Assembly (NCBI GenBank): GCA_027487695.1
Contig: JAIYDB010000019.1
Span: 79,372-131,219 of the forward strand
Reading direction: 5' to 3'
Length of the DNA stretch: 51,848 bases
From: Cytophagaceae bacterium
GTDB taxonomy: Bacteria; Bacteroidota; Bacteroidia; Cytophagales; Flexibacteraceae
Shown: positions 3,941-12,016 of the stretch, in pieces
Layout: each line of letters begins with the position of its first letter
Numbering within the stretch: the stretch's first letter is position 1
Position numbers and translations under genes: made by a program
The notes under the pieces: model-generated
Database searches by the model: none
What the model was told of the DNA's origin: nothing
What the model saw: only the letters and a program-made list of their open reading frames with translations

Positions 3941-4687
3941 TTGAATAACGCCATTATTAAGTCCATTTTCATTGTTTTTCTATGTCTATTGCAGGCATTT
4001 GATGGGCTTGCACAAGATACTTTGAATGGCGGCGAAGTAGGTACTGCTTGTTATTATAGCAGAAAGTTGCAAGGTAGAAGAACTTCTAGCGGCGAACCTT
4101 ACAACAGAAAAAAATACACCTGTGCCCACAAATGGCTACCTCTTGGCACTTTGGTAAGGGTGAGTAATTTGGATAATGGTAAATCGGTAATTGTAACTGT
4201 TAATGACCGAGGTCCGTTTACTAAGCTTTATCAAATAGATCTTTCGGAAATTGCTGCTAAGGAAATTGATGTAATTGGGAAAAATAAGAACAGGGTTTCT
4301 ATAGTCCCTTTGCAGACCCCTGAAGGATTTATTACGGTTGAAAAGAACAATGCCGAGTCTGAAAACCAAATGCCTATGCAGAATTGGTTCGAACCAGGTC
4401 AATATTACAACTCAGATGGCGAACTTGCAGAACCTACAGGGTATGGATTATTTATTAAAACTGAAGAAACTATTGAAGCAGCAAATGTCTTTTGCACCTT
4501 TTTAAAGCGAAAAAATAAAGACCGTGAACTTTTTATTTCGCCAGAGGTAGATGCTTTAGGTACCATCAGATACAAGATTTACGTTGGTACTTTTGAAACC
4601 TTGAGCCTTGCCAAAAAAGGCTTGAAACAATTAAAAAAGGAAAACCTGAAAGGAAATTTGCCAGTTATCCGTAAATACGTGCTATGA
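3941..4687 (+). CDS. rlpA: RlpA-like septal ring / peptidoglycan-binding protein (DPBB + SPOR)
   Basis: Probable periplasmic or outer-membrane protein acting on denuded peptidoglycan. It has 248 residues: a signal peptide (about 1-24, ending DGLA-Q), a double-psi beta-barrel domain (about 30-120) with GTACYYS, TSSGEPY, LPLGTLVRV and the diagnostic NDRGPF, and a C-terminal SPOR-like domain (about 165-246). Some RlpA proteins are lytic transglycosylases. The barrel Asp in NDRGPF is present, but activity is not proven. The start is a TTG at 3941. No in-frame ATG precedes the signal peptide, so the non-ATG start is the best choice. Its stop overlaps the ATG of the DUF58 gene (ATGA), indicating translational coupling. 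Confidence 0.88.
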   Translation: MNNAIIKSIFIVFLCLLQAFDGLAQDTLNGGEVGTACYYSRKLQGRRTSSGEPYNRKKYTCAHKWLPLGTLVRVSNLDNGKSVIVTVNDRGPFTKLYQIDLSEIAAKEIDVIGKNKNRVSIVPLQTPEGFITVEKNNAESENQMPMQNWFEPGQYYNSDGELAEPTGYGLFIKTEETIEAANVFCTFLKRKNKDRELFISPEVDALGTIRYKIYVGTFETLSLAKKGLKQLKKENLKGNLPVIRKYVL

Positions 4688-5592
4688 AACCTGAGATTGA
4701 TTTAAGTGCCGCTCGCCAATATGGAAGTTTAGAACTACTAGCCAAGCAGTTAGTAGAAGGCTTTATTACGGGCTTGCATAAAAGTCCTTATCACGGGTTT
4801 TCAGTTGAGTTTGCAGAACATAAAATTTACAATGCTGGTGAAAGTACAAGACACGTTGATTGGAAACTTTTTGCCCGTACCGATAGACTTTATACCAAGC
4901 GATACGAGGAGGAAACCAATCTTCGCTGCCAAATAGTGCTTGATACCAGTAGCAGTATGTACTACCCTGCTGAAAATAATGGCAAGCTTACCTTTTCTAT
5001 AGTTGCAGCAGCTGCCTTGGCTACCTTATTACAGAAGCAACGCGATGCTGTTGGGCTCACTGTCTTTAATGATGGTATTCAGTTTCAGAGTCAGGTAAAA
5101 AGTACTCCTAGTCATTTGAATACACTTATGCAGTATATGCAGGGACTTATGAAAGCGGCTCCAGTTCAACGTACTACCCATGTTGCGGAAACATTGCACC
5201 TGATTGCTGATAAAATGAACAAGCGTTCGCTAATCGTGATTTTCAGCGATATGTTTGAAAGTGCCGATGATACCGAACTGTTTTCTGCCTTGCGTCACTT
5301 GAAGCACAATAAACATGAGGTGCTCTTATTCCATACTTTTCACAAGCCAACTGAAGAGTTATTTGGTTTCGATGAACGTCCTTACATTTTTGTTGACCTT
5401 GAAACTGGTGAAAAGCTTAAACTAAAACCTGCTGAAGTAAAAGAACGCTATACTGCTGAAATGCTAAAAATGAATAAGGAATTGAAGCAGCGTTGTGGGC
5501 AATTCAAAATTGATTATATAGAAGCGGACATAGAAAAAGGGATTAGTCAAATCCTAATCCCTTATTTAAGTATGCGTAAGAAGATGGCTTAA
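4684..5592 (+). CDS. DUF58 domain protein (VWA-like fold)
   Basis: Cytoplasmic protein of 302 residues from a family often found with MoxR ATPases and BatA/BatB proteins. The DUF58 signature is clear: [20 protein letters not shown] (52-71), followed by a VWA-like MIDAS start, DTSSS (87-91), and a second acidic site in IFSDMFE. No MoxR gene lies next to it, which is unusual for the family. It is translationally coupled to the RlpA-like gene and convergent with clpX, with the two stop codons overlapping by 3 bp in a shared TTAA. Function is unknown beyond probable metal-dependent protein interaction. Confidence 0.9.
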
Positions 5593-6827
5593 GCCACTTT
5601 CATTTTTACTCTAAACTTAGAACGACTTATTTTCTCAGTAACATAATCTGCAGATACCACTAATTGGTTATCGGTAACATTGCCTTTTAGCTCAAACATA
5701 GCCTCGTTCAATACCTCTTCGCAAATAGAACGAAGTCCGCGTGCGCCAAGGTTATGCTCCAATGCCTTTTCAACCATAATATCTATGGCATCATCGTCAA
5801 ACTCTAAAGCGATACCTTCCATAGCAAACAGCTTTTGATACTGCTTTACTAAGGCATTTTTAGGTTCAATAAGAATACGCTTTAGGCTTTCTTTAGTTAA
5901 TGGTTCTAAGTAAGAGATCACAGGAAGGCGACCAATTAATTCTGGAATTAAACCAAAGGCCCTTACATCTGAAGCAGTGATATACTGTAACAGGTTTTCC
6001 TTGTTTACTTCTTCGCTGGTTTCATAAGAAGCCACAAAGCCAATAGGACGTTTATTTAATCTATTACCGATTATACGCTGAATACCTTCAAAGGCCCCAC
6101 CGCATATGAACAGGATATTTTCAGTGTTAATTGAAATAAGCTTTTGTTCAGGATGCTTTCTACCTCCTTGAGGTGGAACATTAATGATAGACCCCTCTAA
6201 TAATTTAAGTAAAGCCTGCTGAACACCTTCACCACTTACATCGCGGGTGATGCTTGGGTTATCGCTCTTTCTTGAAATTTTGTCTATTTCATCTATGTAC
6301 ACTATCCCACGTTCAGCTTGCTCAACATCGTAGTTAGAAGCTTGCAACAAACGGGTAAGTATAGTTTCCACATCTTCACCCACATAACCTGCTTCGGTAA
6401 TTACCGTAGCATCGGCAATGCAGAAAGGAACCTGCAATTTCTTAGCTATGGTTCTGGCTAAATAAGTTTTACCAGTACCAGTATCGCCTACCATTAGGAT
6501 ATTGCTTTTTTCAATCTGAACCTCGTCATCTACTTGGTTAGATTTATGAAGCAAACGCTTGTAATGATTATAAATGGCTACAGAAAGAACCTTCTTTGCA
6601 GCATCCTGACCTATTACAAACTCATCTAAATGAGCTTTTAAATCGGCTGGTTTTGATAAGTTAATTTTAGGCTTTGCCTTTGCAGATGGCTTATTTCCAA
6701 CGGTCTTAGTTTCTTCTTCAAGAATTTGGTTAGCCTTCTCAATACAATTATTGCAGATATGTACGTTTTCGCCACTCACAATAAGGGCTACTTCCTTTTT
6801 ATTTCTGCCACAGAAAGAACAATTCAT
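5589..6827 (-). CDS. clpX: ATP-dependent Clp protease ATP-binding subunit ClpX
   Basis: AAA+ unfoldase that feeds substrates to ClpP. At 412 residues it is of normal length. It has an N-terminal C4 zinc-binding domain (C3, C6, C25, C28), a Walker A motif GDTGTGKT (114-121), Walker B DEID (179-182), the pore-loop GYVGED motif, the RPIGF stretch matching the ClpP-docking IGF loop, and a C-terminal sensor-2 region containing GARGLRS. No clpP is adjacent. The start is 13 bp downstream of the small membrane-protein gene on the same strand. The stop overlaps the DUF58 stop on the other strand. Confidence 0.98.
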
Positions 6828-6840
6828 AAGTATTACAAAG

Positions 6841-7446
6841 TTACGATTTCTCTATTACAAATCGACGTCTTGTAGCCATTGAAACAAAAATGGATAGCAC
6901 AAATACTGGGAAAAACTTCTTCATAAACTCATCGTTAGCCTTGATTTCTGGCGTAGTAGCCTTATATTCAGCTAACATTTTAGTATATGCATCTGCACCA
7001 AATTGCGCAATAAAATTTGTTTTAATATAGGTTTCGTTCTGATAAACGAGTTCATTTATATGTCTTTGCAGTGCATCTGGATTGTAAGCACAAAACAAAT
7101 AAACGAACAAAGCTGAACCTAAAGCCGTAAAAAGTGCTGCAATGCTGCCCATTAAAATACCTTGCCAAAAGTGGAAATTTTTGTTGGGGTGTTTCTTCTT
7201 AAAGTAAACAGTACCTACATAAAGGCATATTACACATATCCAAGGTTCAATAAATAACTGGTTGCGCACATCCAAAGAATCGGTTGTGGTAAAGTAATGC
7301 AATGATAAGATGAACAGCATCACCAAAAAGGCTGATGCCAAACCAGTTATAGCACCATATTGATATAATGGCAATTTAGATTCAAGCTCTAAAGGGGAAG
7401 GTTCAGGCACTACGGCCTTATTTTTTGAAGAATTTTTTGGCTTCAT
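6841..7446 (-). CDS. DUF4199-like four-helix membrane protein
   Basis: Small inner-membrane protein of 201 residues if started at the ATG at 7444-7446 (MKPKNSS); an upstream in-frame start would add 18 residues of unlikely sequence. Hydrophobic segments lie near 32-50, 62-77, 93-118 and 175-190, with a polar loop between the third and fourth that contains [15 protein letters not shown]. The layout resembles DUF4199 proteins of Bacteroidota, whose function is unknown. A TATCTTTA sequence just upstream of the start, one mismatch from TAnnTTTG, may be its promoter. It probably shares a transcript with clpX. Confidence 0.6.
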
Positions 7447-7569
7447 TAGGTTGTAAAGATACGGCAGTTTAAGGCTTAGCCCTAAACTTTTGGCAAGCAA
7501 TTGGCTTAAAAATGAATAACTGAAAGGTAATTTATATAGTTACCCACCTAACAATCGTTTATCTATCGT

Positions 7570-7597: not shown

Positions 7598-9652
7598 ATG
7601 TACTTTACCAATCCTGCTTTTCTTTGGGCTTTGCTTGCTTTAGCTATACCGATAGCTATCCACCTATTTAATTTTCAAAGACCCAAGCAGGTATTTTTTC
7701 CAAGTATCAAATTCTTAAAGCAAGTTCAGCAACAAACCAGAACACTTAGGGAATTAAAGAAGTGGTTGGTTCTAGCTGCCAGATGTTTATTCCTTACTTT
7801 TTTGGTATTGGCTTTTGCCCAACCTATCTGGAATACAGATAGTTCCGCACAAAACAACGCAAAATCAGGACAGAAAATAGTAGGTATTTATATAGATAAC
7901 TCCAATAGTTTACAAGTGCAAGCAGGCAAAGGAACTGCTTTAGATGTTGCTATTTCAGCTGCTGAAAGAGCTGTAAACCAATACAATAGAGAAACAAAAT
8001 TCCACTTAGTTACCAACGATTTTACCGTAAAGGGTGGCTGGTTTGTAAATAAAGACGAGGTACTTTCACAACTACGCAGCATTGATTTAGCCAACAATGC
8101 ACGTACTAGTGCCGAGGTTATTCAACGTTTTCAAACAGCCTTTGCTACACAAAACAGCAAAAACAGGGAAGTATTATGGTTTTCAGATTTTCAGAAAAGC
8201 ACTTTGGGTACAGATTTCAAAGGTTTAGTTTCTGATACTAATACCTATAATTACTTATTCCCAATAAGTACTGAAACCAAAAGCAATGTGGTTGTGGATA
8301 GCGTTTGGCTTGAAACCCCGTTTGTTCAAGTAGGCGTTAACAACACTTTAAACATTCGCCTACATAACTACGGCGATGCCACCGCTGAACAAATCGCGGC
8401 TAAGGTATTCTTAGACAATAAGCAAATTGGTGCCTCTACCGCTAATCTAAGCCCGAATGGCAACCACCAGCTATCGGTTAACTTTTCATTGAGCAGCAAC
8501 AATACGCAAATTGGCAAAATAGAAATTAACGATGCCCCAGTAGTTTTCGATAATAGCTACTTTTTTGCCCTAAAGCCTGCTCCAAAAGTAAATGTGGTGG
8601 TAGTGCAAGACCTCCCTAATAACGCTATTCAAAAGGTTTTTAATAATCCATCGCTGTTTAATACTTCTTTATTTACCTCGGGCAATATTAACTACAGTAA
8701 GTTTTCTGAGGCGGATATTGTTGTAATTAGTCAGCTAGGCAGTATCAATAGTTCATTGACCGACCAACTGGTTAGCCTTGTAAATGCTGGAAAGAGCGTA
8801 TTCGTTATCCCATCCTTAAACCCTGATAAAGGATCATACCAAAACCTGTTTACAAAATTAACTCTTGGTAATATAGATGTAGTTAATGCTTCAGAATTTC
8901 TTTCTACTGCCCAAACTTGGCAGGTGGTAATGCCAAACAAGAATAACGCCTTTTTTAAAGATGTTTTTGAAAGTGTAAGTGCACAAACTGCAAAGCCTTT
9001 TGCAAGTCCTTCAGTGAAGTTGCCAGCAGCTAATGCAATCCTTAATTACCAATCGGGCGAAACCTTCTTTAGTAAATATAATAGAGGTAACGGGCAAGTT
9101 CTTTTATTGGCTGCCCCTGCTTTTGGCGATGGCACCAATCTAAGTAAGCAATCCTTGTTTTTACCATTGCTTTTCAAGGCTGCATTTGGCAGTTTGAAGA
9201 ACTTTGAGCCACTATCTTATACGTTTGGCACCAAGGAAATAACCTTAAATACCCAAGCTTTAGAAGGTGATGCTGTATTTAACCTAGTTAACGGTAGCGA
9301 AAAAGTTATTCCTGCACAGCAGCAACGCAATGGTAAACTGGTATTGGAGGTTCCTAAAAAGCAAATGCCAGCGGGAGTGTATAACCTAACAAATAATAAA
9401 GGTGAAGTGGTGAACAGCCTTGCATTTAACTATTCTCACGAGGAAAGTGACCTTAGTTTACTTGGAACTGACGGACTTAAGCAGTTAACTGCAAACGCCA
9501 AAAACATAAAAATAAGCGCCCCTATTTCAGATGGCGGTGCTACTGCCGATATAGCTAACGAAGGAAAGGGTACTGCACTTTGGAAGTATTTTATTATTGT
9601 TGCATTAGGATTTTTGCTTGCTGAAATCTTAATTCTTCGTTTCTGGAAATAA
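7598..9652 (+). CDS. BatA-like N-terminal domain membrane protein
   Basis: Membrane-anchored protein of 684 residues. The N-terminus (about 1-80) matches the BatA/aerotolerance-regulator N-terminal region (PF07584-type): MYFTNPAFLWALLALAIPIA with a first helix, then IHLFNFQRPKQVFFPSIKFL, and a second helix near 57-79. A long extracytoplasmic region follows, with a VWA-like start at about 93-99 (IYIDNSN), and a final helix lies near 660-680. It probably spans the membrane with a large periplasmic part. It stands one base before the dihydroorotase-like gene, so the two are a tight operon. The precise role is unknown. Confidence 0.85.
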   Translation: MYFTNPAFLWALLALAIPIAIHLFNFQRPKQVFFPSIKFLKQVQQQTRTLRELKKWLVLAARCLFLTFLVLAFAQPIWNTDSSAQNNAKSGQKIVGIYIDNSNSLQVQAGKGTALDVAISAAERAVNQYNRETKFHLVTNDFTVKGGWFVNKDEVLSQLRSIDLANNARTSAEVIQRFQTAFATQNSKNREVLWFSDFQKSTLGTDFKGLVSDTNTYNYLFPISTETKSNVVVDSVWLETPFVQVGVNNTLNIRLHNYGDATAEQIAAKVFLDNKQIGASTANLSPNGNHQLSVNFSLSSNNTQIGKIEINDAPVVFDNSYFFALKPAPKVNVVVVQDLPNNAIQKVFNNPSLFNTSLFTSGNINYSKFSEADIVVISQLGSINSSLTDQLVSLVNAGKSVFVIPSLNPDKGSYQNLFTKLTLGNIDVVNASEFLSTAQTWQVVMPNKNNAFFKDVFESVSAQTAKPFASPSVKLPAANAILNYQSGETFFSKYNRGNGQVLLLAAPAFGDGTNLSKQSLFLPLLFKAAFGSLKNFEPLSYTFGTKEITLNTQALEGDAVFNLVNGSEKVIPAQQQRNGKLVLEVPKKQMPAGVYNLTNNKGEVVNSLAFNYSHEESDLSLLGTDGLKQLTANAKNIKISAPISDGGATADIANEGKGTALWKYFIIVALGFLLAEILILRFWK

Positions 9653-9653
9653 T

Positions 9654-10925
9654 ATGGCACTTACACTTATTACCAATACGATATTGGTAAATCCACAATC
9701 ACAACTGCACTTAAAAGCAGTGAACATCCTTATTGAAGATGGTATCATTCAAACCATTGGAGAAGATACCATTAAGGTTGATGATGACGATTTGGACGAA
9801 GTATTTGATGCCGAAGGGGCCTATTGTAGTTTAGGATGGACCGATTTACGTTGCCAAAGTGGTGAACCGGGATTAGAAAGTCGAGAAACTTTGGAGTCGC
9901 TTGCATTAACAGCTGCTAATGGTGGTTTTACCCACGTTTGTATTTTGCCAAATACAAAGCCTACTATTTCTACTAGGCAGATGGTAGCTTACTTTAAAAA
10001 TGCAGAAACAGAAAGTCCAGTTTCCTTTCACCCAATAGGTAGTTTAACCAAAAACTTAGATGGCAAACACCTAGCTGAAATGATGGATATGGCCGATGCT
10101 GGTGTAACCTTGTTTGCTGAAGCTGGTGCCATTGCCGATGCCGATATACTCTTAAAGTCATTACAGTATAGCGCAATGACAGGTGCTGCTATTATTGATA
10201 GACCAGAAGACCATCATATTTCGGCCTTTGGTCAAATGCACGAAGGCGAACAAAGTACCTTGCTTGGTTTAAAAGGCATACCTCCACTTTCTGAGTTACT
10301 GGCAGTCCAAAGAAATTTGACACTTTTAGAGTATGCTGGTGGTACCCTACACCTATCTTGTATCAGCACCAAAGAAAGTGTAGAAGCGATAAGAAATGCC
10401 AAGGCAAAAGGACTTAATGTAACAGCTAGTATAGCTGCCCACCAATTAAGTTTCTTGGATACTGATTTGGCAGAATTTGATACGTACCTTAAAGTTCACC
10501 CACCTTTCAGATCTCAAGAACATAAAGAAGCTTTATTAGCTGGATTGTTAGATGGCACCATTGATGCTGTTGAAACAGACCACACGCCTTTAGATACGGA
10601 AAGTAAATACCTAGAATTTGATTTGGCTACCCCGGGCATTGCAGGTCTGCAAACTGCCTACCCTGCCCTATTAACTGCAACTGATATTTCTGTAGAGCAA
10701 ACCGCTCAATTGTTCAGCTACAGACCAAGGGCTATTGCCCAAATACCTGTTTACGAAATTGAAGCAGGCGAAATGGCCGATTTAACCTTCTTCCATCCAG
10801 AAATTAATACGCTTGTAAATACGGATATATGGAGCAGTCTATCTAATAACTCTCCCTTCTTTAATCAAAAGTTAAAGGGTGCCGTATTAGCTGTATATCA
10901 TAAAGGGCAACTACATATGTGTTAA
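9654..10925 (+). CDS. Dihydroorotase-like amidohydrolase homologue, probably non-catalytic
   Basis: Clear homologue of class I dihydroorotases (423 residues) with the family backbone: EPGLESRETLES, GGFTHVCILPNTKPTI, KVHPPFRSQEHKEAL, DGTIDAVETDHTP, TPGIAGLQTAYPALL. The zinc ligands are mostly gone. The HxH position reads TDLRCQ (63-68), the HCED histidine is replaced in IDRPED (R183), and the HxST histidine is replaced by Cys236 in HLSCIST. Only the Asp of TDH (D309) remains. It is therefore unlikely to catalyse the pyrimidine step, and another pyrC should exist elsewhere in the genome. The ATG follows the BatA-like stop by one base. An annotation as 'dihydroorotase, PyrC' would be misleading. 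Confidence 0.85.
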   Translation: MALTLITNTILVNPQSQLHLKAVNILIEDGIIQTIGEDTIKVDDDDLDEVFDAEGAYCSLGWTDLRCQSGEPGLESRETLESLALTAANGGFTHVCILPNTKPTISTRQMVAYFKNAETESPVSFHPIGSLTKNLDGKHLAEMMDMADAGVTLFAEAGAIADADILLKSLQYSAMTGAAIIDRPEDHHISAFGQMHEGEQSTLLGLKGIPPLSELLAVQRNLTLLEYAGGTLHLSCISTKESVEAIRNAKAKGLNVTASIAAHQLSFLDTDLAEFDTYLKVHPPFRSQEHKEALLAGLLDGTIDAVETDHTPLDTESKYLEFDLATPGIAGLQTAYPALLTATDISVEQTAQLFSYRPRAIAQIPVYEIEAGEMADLTFFHPEINTLVNTDIWSSLSNNSPFFNQKLKGAVLAVYHKGQLHMC

Positions 10926-10951: not shown

Positions 10952-12016
10952 TTATTTAGCCTTAGCAGTATCACTTGCTAAGGCTGTTTCTTTTAGTTTC
11001 TTGAGTTGCTCAGTAGCCCTATCTTCGTAGCCCATTTTGTTCGCAATAACAGCATCAAAATTTTTGCGGGCTTCATCTCTTTTACCTGTATAAGCATAAG
11101 CAGAACCTAAGTAAAACAAGATATCTGCTTGCTTAGGTGCATAAGACTTTGCTGCTTCAAAATGGTCGATTGAATTACTATATCTGCGGGCATCAAACTC
11201 ATATTTTCCCAATTTAAAGTGAGCTGAATACAAACCAGGTTCAAAGAAAATCGCCTTTTTCAGCCAGTTTACTGCACTATCAGGCTTTTGGGTATAATCG
11301 AAATACAAGCCCATATTGTAATGTAAGAATGCATCTTTCGGACCAAATCGCAAACCACTTTCAAGGTATTGTTTTGCCATATCGTACTTCTTTTGGTCAA
11401 AATAAAGGACCGCTAATTTATTATAGGCATCCACAAATTCAGGACTTAATTCAATAGCAGTTTGTAAGCTACTTACTGCTTTGGCACTATCCTTCAATTC
11501 AGAGAAAATAAGACCTTTATAGAAGTAAGCCTTTGGTTCATACTTCGCTATTTTAATAGCCTTGTCCATATACTTTATAGCCATGGCATATTCCTTTAAT
11601 ACAAAGTGCATCTCCCCAATCTGAACTAGTAGGTCAGGAGTTTCTAACTTTAAAGCTTCTGCTTTTTTAGCTGCCTCCATTGCCAATTTAACATTAGGCA
11701 AAGTGTATAAAGCTTTGGATTTCAATAGCCAGAACCTACCTTGAGTACTATCTAAATATATTGCACGAACAGCATCTTTATAAGCTTGTTCGCCCTCTTT
11801 CTGATCAAGAAAGTAGTTACCTCTTCTAAAATACAATTCCGGATTTTCAGGATCAGCCAAAACGGCGTCGTTTAATGCCTTTAACTCAATGGTCTCAGAA
11901 TAAGCAGTTTGCTCTGGAACATCTTGAATTGTTTGGTTGGGGTCTTTCTTTTCATCACAGGCAATAACTACCCAAGCCAAAAGTACCGTAAACAGCAAAG
12001 CGGAAATTTTTCTCAT
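10952..12016 (-). CDS. TPR-repeat lipoprotein
   Basis: Exported protein of 354 residues with a lipoprotein signal peptide (hydrophobic stretch, then VIAC with the lipidated Cys at 20). After a short linker it consists of about seven to eight tetratricopeptide repeats (about 50-340). Examples are PELYFRRGNYFLDQKEGEQA, EPKAYFYKGLIFSELKDSAK and DAFLHYNMGLYFDYTQKPDS. TPR arrays bind protein partners, and nothing in the sequence identifies the partner. AATCTTTG about 10 bp upstream of the start is one mismatch from a -7 element. It is convergent with the dihydroorotase-like gene. Confidence 0.88.
   Translation of the reverse strand: MRKISALLFTVLLAWVVIACDEKKDPNQTIQDVPEQTAYSETIELKALNDAVLADPENPELYFRRGNYFLDQKEGEQAYKDAVRAIYLDSTQGRFWLLKSKALYTLPNVKLAMEAAKKAEALKLETPDLLVQIGEMHFVLKEYAMAIKYMDKAIKIAKYEPKAYFYKGLIFSELKDSAKAVSSLQTAIELSPEFVDAYNKLAVLYFDQKKYDMAKQYLESGLRFGPKDAFLHYNMGLYFDYTQKPDSAVNWLKKAIFFEPGLYSAHFKLGKYEFDARRYSNSIDHFEAAKSYAPKQADILFYLGSAYAYTGKRDEARKNFDAVIANKMGYEDRATEQLKKLKETALASDTAKAK

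Follow-up and report, generated by a model that had tools for sequence, protein, structure and literature searches.

The window analyzed here is the whole stretch of 51,848 nucleotides taken from one contig of a Cytophagaceae bacterium genome. On its forward strand, positions 9654-10925 encode a protein of 423 amino acids, here called the pseudo-dihydroorotase (pDHO), whose start is separated by a 1-bp gap from the end of a BatA-like open reading frame of 684 amino acids (7598-9652). The BatA-like protein matches the Pfam families BatA (80.8 bits) and VWA_2 (30.0 bits), both above cut-off. No pyr gene adjoins pDHO in the source genome, confirming what an initial annotation had described, namely a dihydroorotase homologue lying 1 bp behind a BatA-like gene and away from any pyr gene. 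The two genes are likely co-transcribed, yet they are separable in evolution. A terminator-like stem downstream of pDHO possibly ends the BatA-pDHO unit, although the sites found by the terminator scan were no commoner than in shuffled sequences. The features are listed below, with ligand positions numbered after the dihydroorotase (DHO) of Aquifex (H61, H63, D153, H180, H232 and D305, as given in PMC3880350).

7598..9652, forward strand: BatA-like VWA membrane protein, 684 aa, stops 1 bp before the pDHO start
9654..10925, forward strand: pDHO, predicted non-catalytic partner chain of aspartate transcarbamoylase (ATCase), 423 aa; from profile, ligands, AlphaFold2 model and co-distribution
9849..9857, forward strand: codons 66-68 (R-C-Q), equivalent to Aquifex H61 and H63, both lost
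10122..10124, forward strand: codon 157 (Ala), equivalent to Aquifex D153, lost
10200..10202, forward strand: codon 183 (Arg), equivalent to Aquifex H180, lost
10359..10361, forward strand: codon 236 (Cys), equivalent to Aquifex H232, lost
10578..10580, forward strand: codon 309 (Asp), equivalent to Aquifex D305, the sole ligand retained
10957..10986, forward strand: terminator-like stem of 12 pairs with a T tail, 3' of the pDHO stop

Elsewhere in the window, a ClpX-like gene (identified by eye; 5589-6827, reverse strand) and a DUF58 gene (4684-5592, forward strand) overlap by 4 bp at their 3' ends, and the gene of a DUF4199 membrane protein (6841-7500, reverse strand) adjoins the BatA-like gene. 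DUF4199 proteins are also encoded around the loci of relatives, downstream of pDHO (L250:4782-5324, L253:4773-5324 and L258:887-1974), and a family 2 glycosyltransferase-like gene is next in the row in L256 and L258.

Metal ligands and fold of pDHO

When aligned with intact relatives and with Aquifex DHO, pDHO presents R66, Q68, A157, R183, C236 and D309 at the six ligand positions, and thus keeps one of the six metal ligands of a catalytic type I PyrC. The initial annotation had correctly read the class I DHO backbone, the lost histidines of the HxH, HCED and HxST motifs and the remaining Asp309, but it overlooked the loss of the metal-binding aspartate (A157). Its statement that these histidines are needed for catalysis calls for care: according to PMC3880350, the Aquifex type I enzyme functions with one zinc and its H180A and H232A mutants are still active, so the losses at positions 183 and 236 alone do not prove inactivity. 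Judging from the residues present, it is very likely that the joint loss of H61, H63 and D153 has left pDHO inactive.

Matches to pDHO were found in 379 of 392 genomes of the phylum. None of the 55 pseudo-type rows that were aligned keeps more than three of the six ligands; these rows represent 54 genomes (L120 repeats L053) and include two partial genes, in which gaps were scored as not kept. Among 80 named Cytophagales copies, the best 80 of 469 relatives, 36 keep no ligand, 32 keep one, 10 keep two and two keep three; judging from these hits, the source organism is related to Cytophagales. All six ligands are intact in 16 outgroup copies from other classes and in one Hymenobacter-type Bacteroidia copy (L124 of genome G072). 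Because ligand loss is repeated throughout the pseudo-type rows and the Cytophagales copies, it reflects neither chance nor a sequencing slip, and the earlier description of a non-catalytic DHO homologue holds across Bacteroidia. Extremely diverged pDHOs occur in six genomes of family f93 (L270-L275), with about 400 amino acids in five and a 170-amino-acid piece in the sixth; they are near the detection limit, keep none of the six ligand positions and adjoin an opposite-strand gene starting MLPSPAF.

The AlphaFold2 model of pDHO (pLDDT 89.8, pTM 0.91) has the type I DHO fold. The two best structure matches both come from complexes of Aquifex DHO with ATCase and are the DHO chains 4bjh_A (Z 53.1, rmsd 2.0 over 413 residues) and 3d6n_A (Z 52.2); the third to sixth are other type I DHOs (Z 48-50). 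By sequence, the nearest solved relatives are the dihydroorotases of Aquifex, Bacillus and Staphylococcus. A fold that is, in the model, fully kept, together with the conservation of some pocket-side motifs, could be taken to mean that pDHO has changed its chemistry, as an enzyme or as a ligand sensor, with a pocket that would bind a pyrimidine intermediate with no metal. However, the ligand columns in the pseudo-type set fall below typical conservation (commonest residue 0.20-0.39, and 0.59 for D305, against a median of 0.49) and drift freely, in a different way from family to family, with no new fixed residue set. We therefore regard changed chemistry as extremely improbable.

A second dihydroorotase in the source genome

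The source genome (2.89 Mb in 129 contigs, 96% complete) contains two DHO matches, pDHO and a protein of 444 amino acids (L002), which is encoded on the same contig 50 kb away and has 25% identity to pDHO over positions 7-415. L002 scores 705.5 bits (cut-off 535) as a dihydroorotase of the PRK09236 type, which is represented by structure 2gwn from P. gingivalis. It shares a superfamily with pDHO but, unlike pDHO, has most catalytic residues in place: the lysine, HCED and TDHAPH motifs are present, and HxH begins with Gln instead of His. This substitution recurs in the PRK09236-type PyrC of G012, G281, G325, G337 and G468, where the HxH reading covered the PRK09236-type PyrC only, whereas other PRK09236-type PyrCs retain the first His. 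Since pDHO was not found in G012, G325 and G337, all of which have the Gln-form PyrC, this form is probably functional. From its sequence, L002 would be the separate, catalytic-looking PyrC that is to be expected beside a class A2 pDHO. The coordinates of the Gln-form PyrC are L002:1483-2814 and, in the source genome, G000:C110:39800-41038.

These data bear on how the gene is named. Against the NCBIfam dihydroorotase model TIGR00857, pDHO scores 289.0 bits (cut-off 279.05), and this model would call it a dihydroorotase; pDHO is thus easily misnamed as an enzyme, as the initial annotation had anticipated. Its further concern, that annotation as pyrC would falsely complete the pyrimidine pathway, does not apply because the PRK09236-type PyrC is encoded elsewhere in the genome. 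The search for a second, intact pyrC that it had recommended thus found a catalytic-looking candidate, with the substitution at HxH noted above.

Distribution of pDHO, PyrB and BatA

To relate pDHO to other components, 197 Bacteroidia genomes (200 were requested) were scored for pDHO, PyrI and PyrB. Presence of pDHO was assigned by score, with an extra profile run on 36 genomes and the diverged f93 copies read directly; ligands were read directly in 43 of the 197 genomes (all inside the 54 above), and in the other genomes presence rests on score. PyrB was typed by the length of the stretch before the FFENSTRT motif, readable in 188 genomes, as long (31 residues) or short (26 residues). An orthologue of pDHO was found in 179 genomes, including G072, whose DHO keeps all six ligands, so that the ligand-less candidates number 178. 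Long-type PyrB is present in 174 of the 179 carriers, counting as long-type G514, which has both PyrB types and pDHO. A further carrier, G527, has the same type with one extra residue; PyrB was not found in G407, G511 and G551, and that of G416 was not readable. The 18 non-carriers comprise nine with short-type PyrB, five with no PyrB found (G166, G412, G423, G455 and G480) and four with a 31-residue stretch. Thus, detectable PyrB is absent from eight genomes, five of which also have no pDHO, and pDHO occurs in none of the nine genomes whose PyrB is exclusively short-type. PyrI (at least 138 bits) was found in eight of these nine and in no pDHO carrier; a ninth PyrI match, in G029 (25.8 bits, with stop codons), was judged to be due to chance. 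In the source genome, PyrB (319.4 bits) lies on contig C23, where it adjoins a PyrR-like gene (by eye), and a profile search found no match to PyrI. PyrB with PyrI absent from the same genome is the combination expected alongside a class A2 pDHO.

The association between PyrB type and pDHO presence gives a Fisher p of about 1e-14 (196 genomes, with G527 scored as contradicting the rule and kinship uncorrected), a value that overstates the evidence because many of the genomes are kin. We would like to emphasize that the co-distribution represents far fewer independent events than genomes, several non-carriers sharing ancestry. The absences lie in several, possibly independent groups (f12/f13/f108, f7, f90, G412 and G166), and seven further f7 genomes from the phylum sample have short-type PyrB and one weak match each to pDHO. 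There are also exceptions. The genus g225 (G442, G470 and G494) has long-type PyrB with no pDHO found, either because the pDHO partner is too diverged to detect or because PyrB works alone there; the BatA-like gene was not found in these three genomes either. G468 has a 31-residue PyrB segment that lacks the K-x-P motif and no pDHO, and is ambiguous, with its BatA gene at a contig end. The long segment was considered as proof of DHO binding, an idea that was dropped because the DHO-binding ATCase of Aquifex does not have it; it is a lineage marker only. In proteobacterial class A2 PyrBs, the same stretch is 30-31 residues long when judged by eye, with no K-x-P motif.

In other lineages, homologues of pDHO are found beside pyrB itself. 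For example, in f14, which belongs to another class of the phylum, pyrB overlaps a ligand-poor homologue by 4 bp in all four genomes, and these homologues keep zero or one of the six ligands. Sinorhizobium and Sphingomonas likewise have pyrB followed by a homologue with a 4-bp overlap, and Acinetobacter with a 3-bp gap, each homologue again keeping zero or one ligand. A DHO with all ligands adjoins pyrB in 8 of 24 outgroup loci, and also in G330, G339 and G374, which suggests that the pyrB-pyrC pair is likely ancestral. In the one FastTree phylogeny that was reconstructed (80 tips), a clade of 56 tips (support 0.99) unites the proteobacterial, f14 (copy from G001) and Bacteroidia pseudo copies and contains no intact copy, a grouping of fast-evolving sequences that may reflect long-branch attraction. 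In one named metagenome-assembled genome of Cytophagales (L427), 987 bp separate pDHO from an upstream pyrB of the long type. The full-ligand DHO of G072 lies behind a long-type pyrB and groups with pyrB-DHO pairs that two Hymenobacter species carry on plasmids; in the genus mate of G072, G166, neither pyrB nor pDHO was found. On the Hymenobacter plasmids (L482 and L483), where the DHO keeps all six ligands, purine genes lie downstream of the pyrB-DHO pair, so that part of both pyrimidine and purine synthesis is plasmid-borne.

The gene order with BatA is common. Of 41 Bacteroidia loci, 33 have a BatA-like gene within 1.5 kb upstream of pDHO, also where pDHO is strongly diverged (L127, L128 and L131). 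Among the 80 named Cytophagales loci, such a gene is upstream in 50. G407 has the BatA-pDHO pair with no PyrB found. This tight arrangement would fit a pDHO that takes no part in making pyrimidines and has instead been recruited to the BatA-like VWA protein of the membrane, within an envelope system or one of MoxR type. A BatA partner was the first candidate, much as the initial annotation had suggested an adopted role in the membrane, or else in regulation or ligand sensing. It was demoted after the BatA-like profile was run on 41 chosen genomes, in which the two genes are not retained or lost together: seven have the BatA-like gene with no pDHO (G166, G423, G455, G480, G502, G523 and G468), and five have pDHO with no BatA-like match (G346, G378, G253, G091 and G385), all five with long-type PyrB. 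Moreover, no BatA match lies beside the f14 and proteobacterial homologues in the loci scanned, the related lineage f14 keeping its homologue in overlap with pyrB. Presence or absence of pDHO tracks PyrB type rather than BatA, and a purely BatA-related role is in our view very unlikely. Of the conservation that the initial annotation had proposed to check, the ligand losses are thus conserved, and the BatA order is common but separable. BatA-like matches in f93 are weak, with none in the stretches holding the f93 pDHOs, and neither BatA-like gene nor pDHO was found in the f7 (five tested), f12 and f13 genomes.

Proposed role of pDHO and comparison with known systems

By analogy with Pseudomonas, we consider it highly probable that pDHO has lost DHO catalysis and acts as a pseudo-DHO that assembles PyrB into an active ATCase. 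In pyrimidine synthesis, ATCase is the second enzyme and dihydroorotase the third. The initial annotation had named the right analogy, that of a structural partner of ATCase, only to set it aside. The ATCase would be of class A2 type, with pDHO as its non-catalytic chain; as in Pseudomonas aeruginosa, six copies each of PyrB and pDHO would assemble into a dodecamer, pDHO dimers would keep PyrB in the trimeric form that is active, and the PyrC reaction would be left to the separate PRK09236-type dihydroorotase. The complex, its stoichiometry and the dependence of PyrB on pDHO are predicted from the co-distribution and from the pyrB-pDHO pairs of relatives. Once freed from pyrB, the gene may have moved behind BatA, perhaps for co-expression, a relocation that presumably has little functional bearing. 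Counting against an ATCase subunit, the pDHO of the source genome is not beside pyrB, which is on another contig, and the conserved BatA order is left unexplained.

A dual role, in which the ATCase subunit also contacts the BatA-like protein and thereby links ATCase with the membrane or with a VWA/MoxR regulator, would accommodate the BatA gene order and the PyrB co-distribution, both of which occur in one lineage. If so, many Bacteroidia would place or regulate at the membrane the step that commits them to pyrimidine synthesis. However, pDHO persists without either partner needing the other, and gene order alone can reflect co-expression; we consider a dual role quite unlikely.

If pDHO is indeed an ATCase subunit, a class A2-type ATCase would be present in most Bacteroidia other than the groups with PyrI or with short PyrB, and the protein that TIGR00857 would name dihydroorotase in the source genome would be a structural subunit of ATCase. 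Loss of pDHO accompanies the loss or exchange of PyrB, including in G072, where pyrB and the intact DHO match the plasmid-borne pairs. Whether PyrB depends on a dead DHO, a matter hitherto studied in Pseudomonas, could then also be tested in another phylum. No paper on the pDHO of Bacteroidota was found in the open literature (subscription papers were mostly outside the scope of the search), and the word stem for Bacteroidota is absent from PMC7053772.

Three known systems resemble pDHO. The DHO of Aquifex aeolicus (class A1; 3d6n and 4bjh) is its best fold match, at about 31% identity, and, according to PMC3880350, has no activity unless it is bound to ATCase. Unlike pDHO, it has retained its ligands and catalyzes its reaction within the complex, and its ATCase does not have the long PyrB segment. 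The fungal Ura2/CAD-like pseudo-DHO, as described in PMC7053772 and PMC4581275, is also a ligand-less DHO fold linked to ATCase, but it is a domain of a fused protein, and it is likened to pDHO by description and not by sequence. The parallel adopted here is the class A2 ATCase of Pseudomonas aeruginosa, P. putida and P. fluorescens, which according to PMC7053772 likewise has a ligand-less DHO homologue, its own PyrB and a separate PyrC. For P. aeruginosa, the same paper reports that PyrB alone is monomeric and inactive, that pDHO is needed for ATCase activity and trimer assembly, and that stoichiometric PyrB and inactive pDHO give an active dodecamer. Pseudomonas is again likened by description, whereas the proteobacterial relatives that cluster with the source pDHO are those of Acinetobacter, Sinorhizobium and Sphingomonas. 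In contrast to Pseudomonas, the pDHO gene here follows a BatA-like gene, a long way from pyrB, and the complex is predicted. Class A2 ATCases with a pDHO are thus already known from Pseudomonas, and the gene order described here is a variant.
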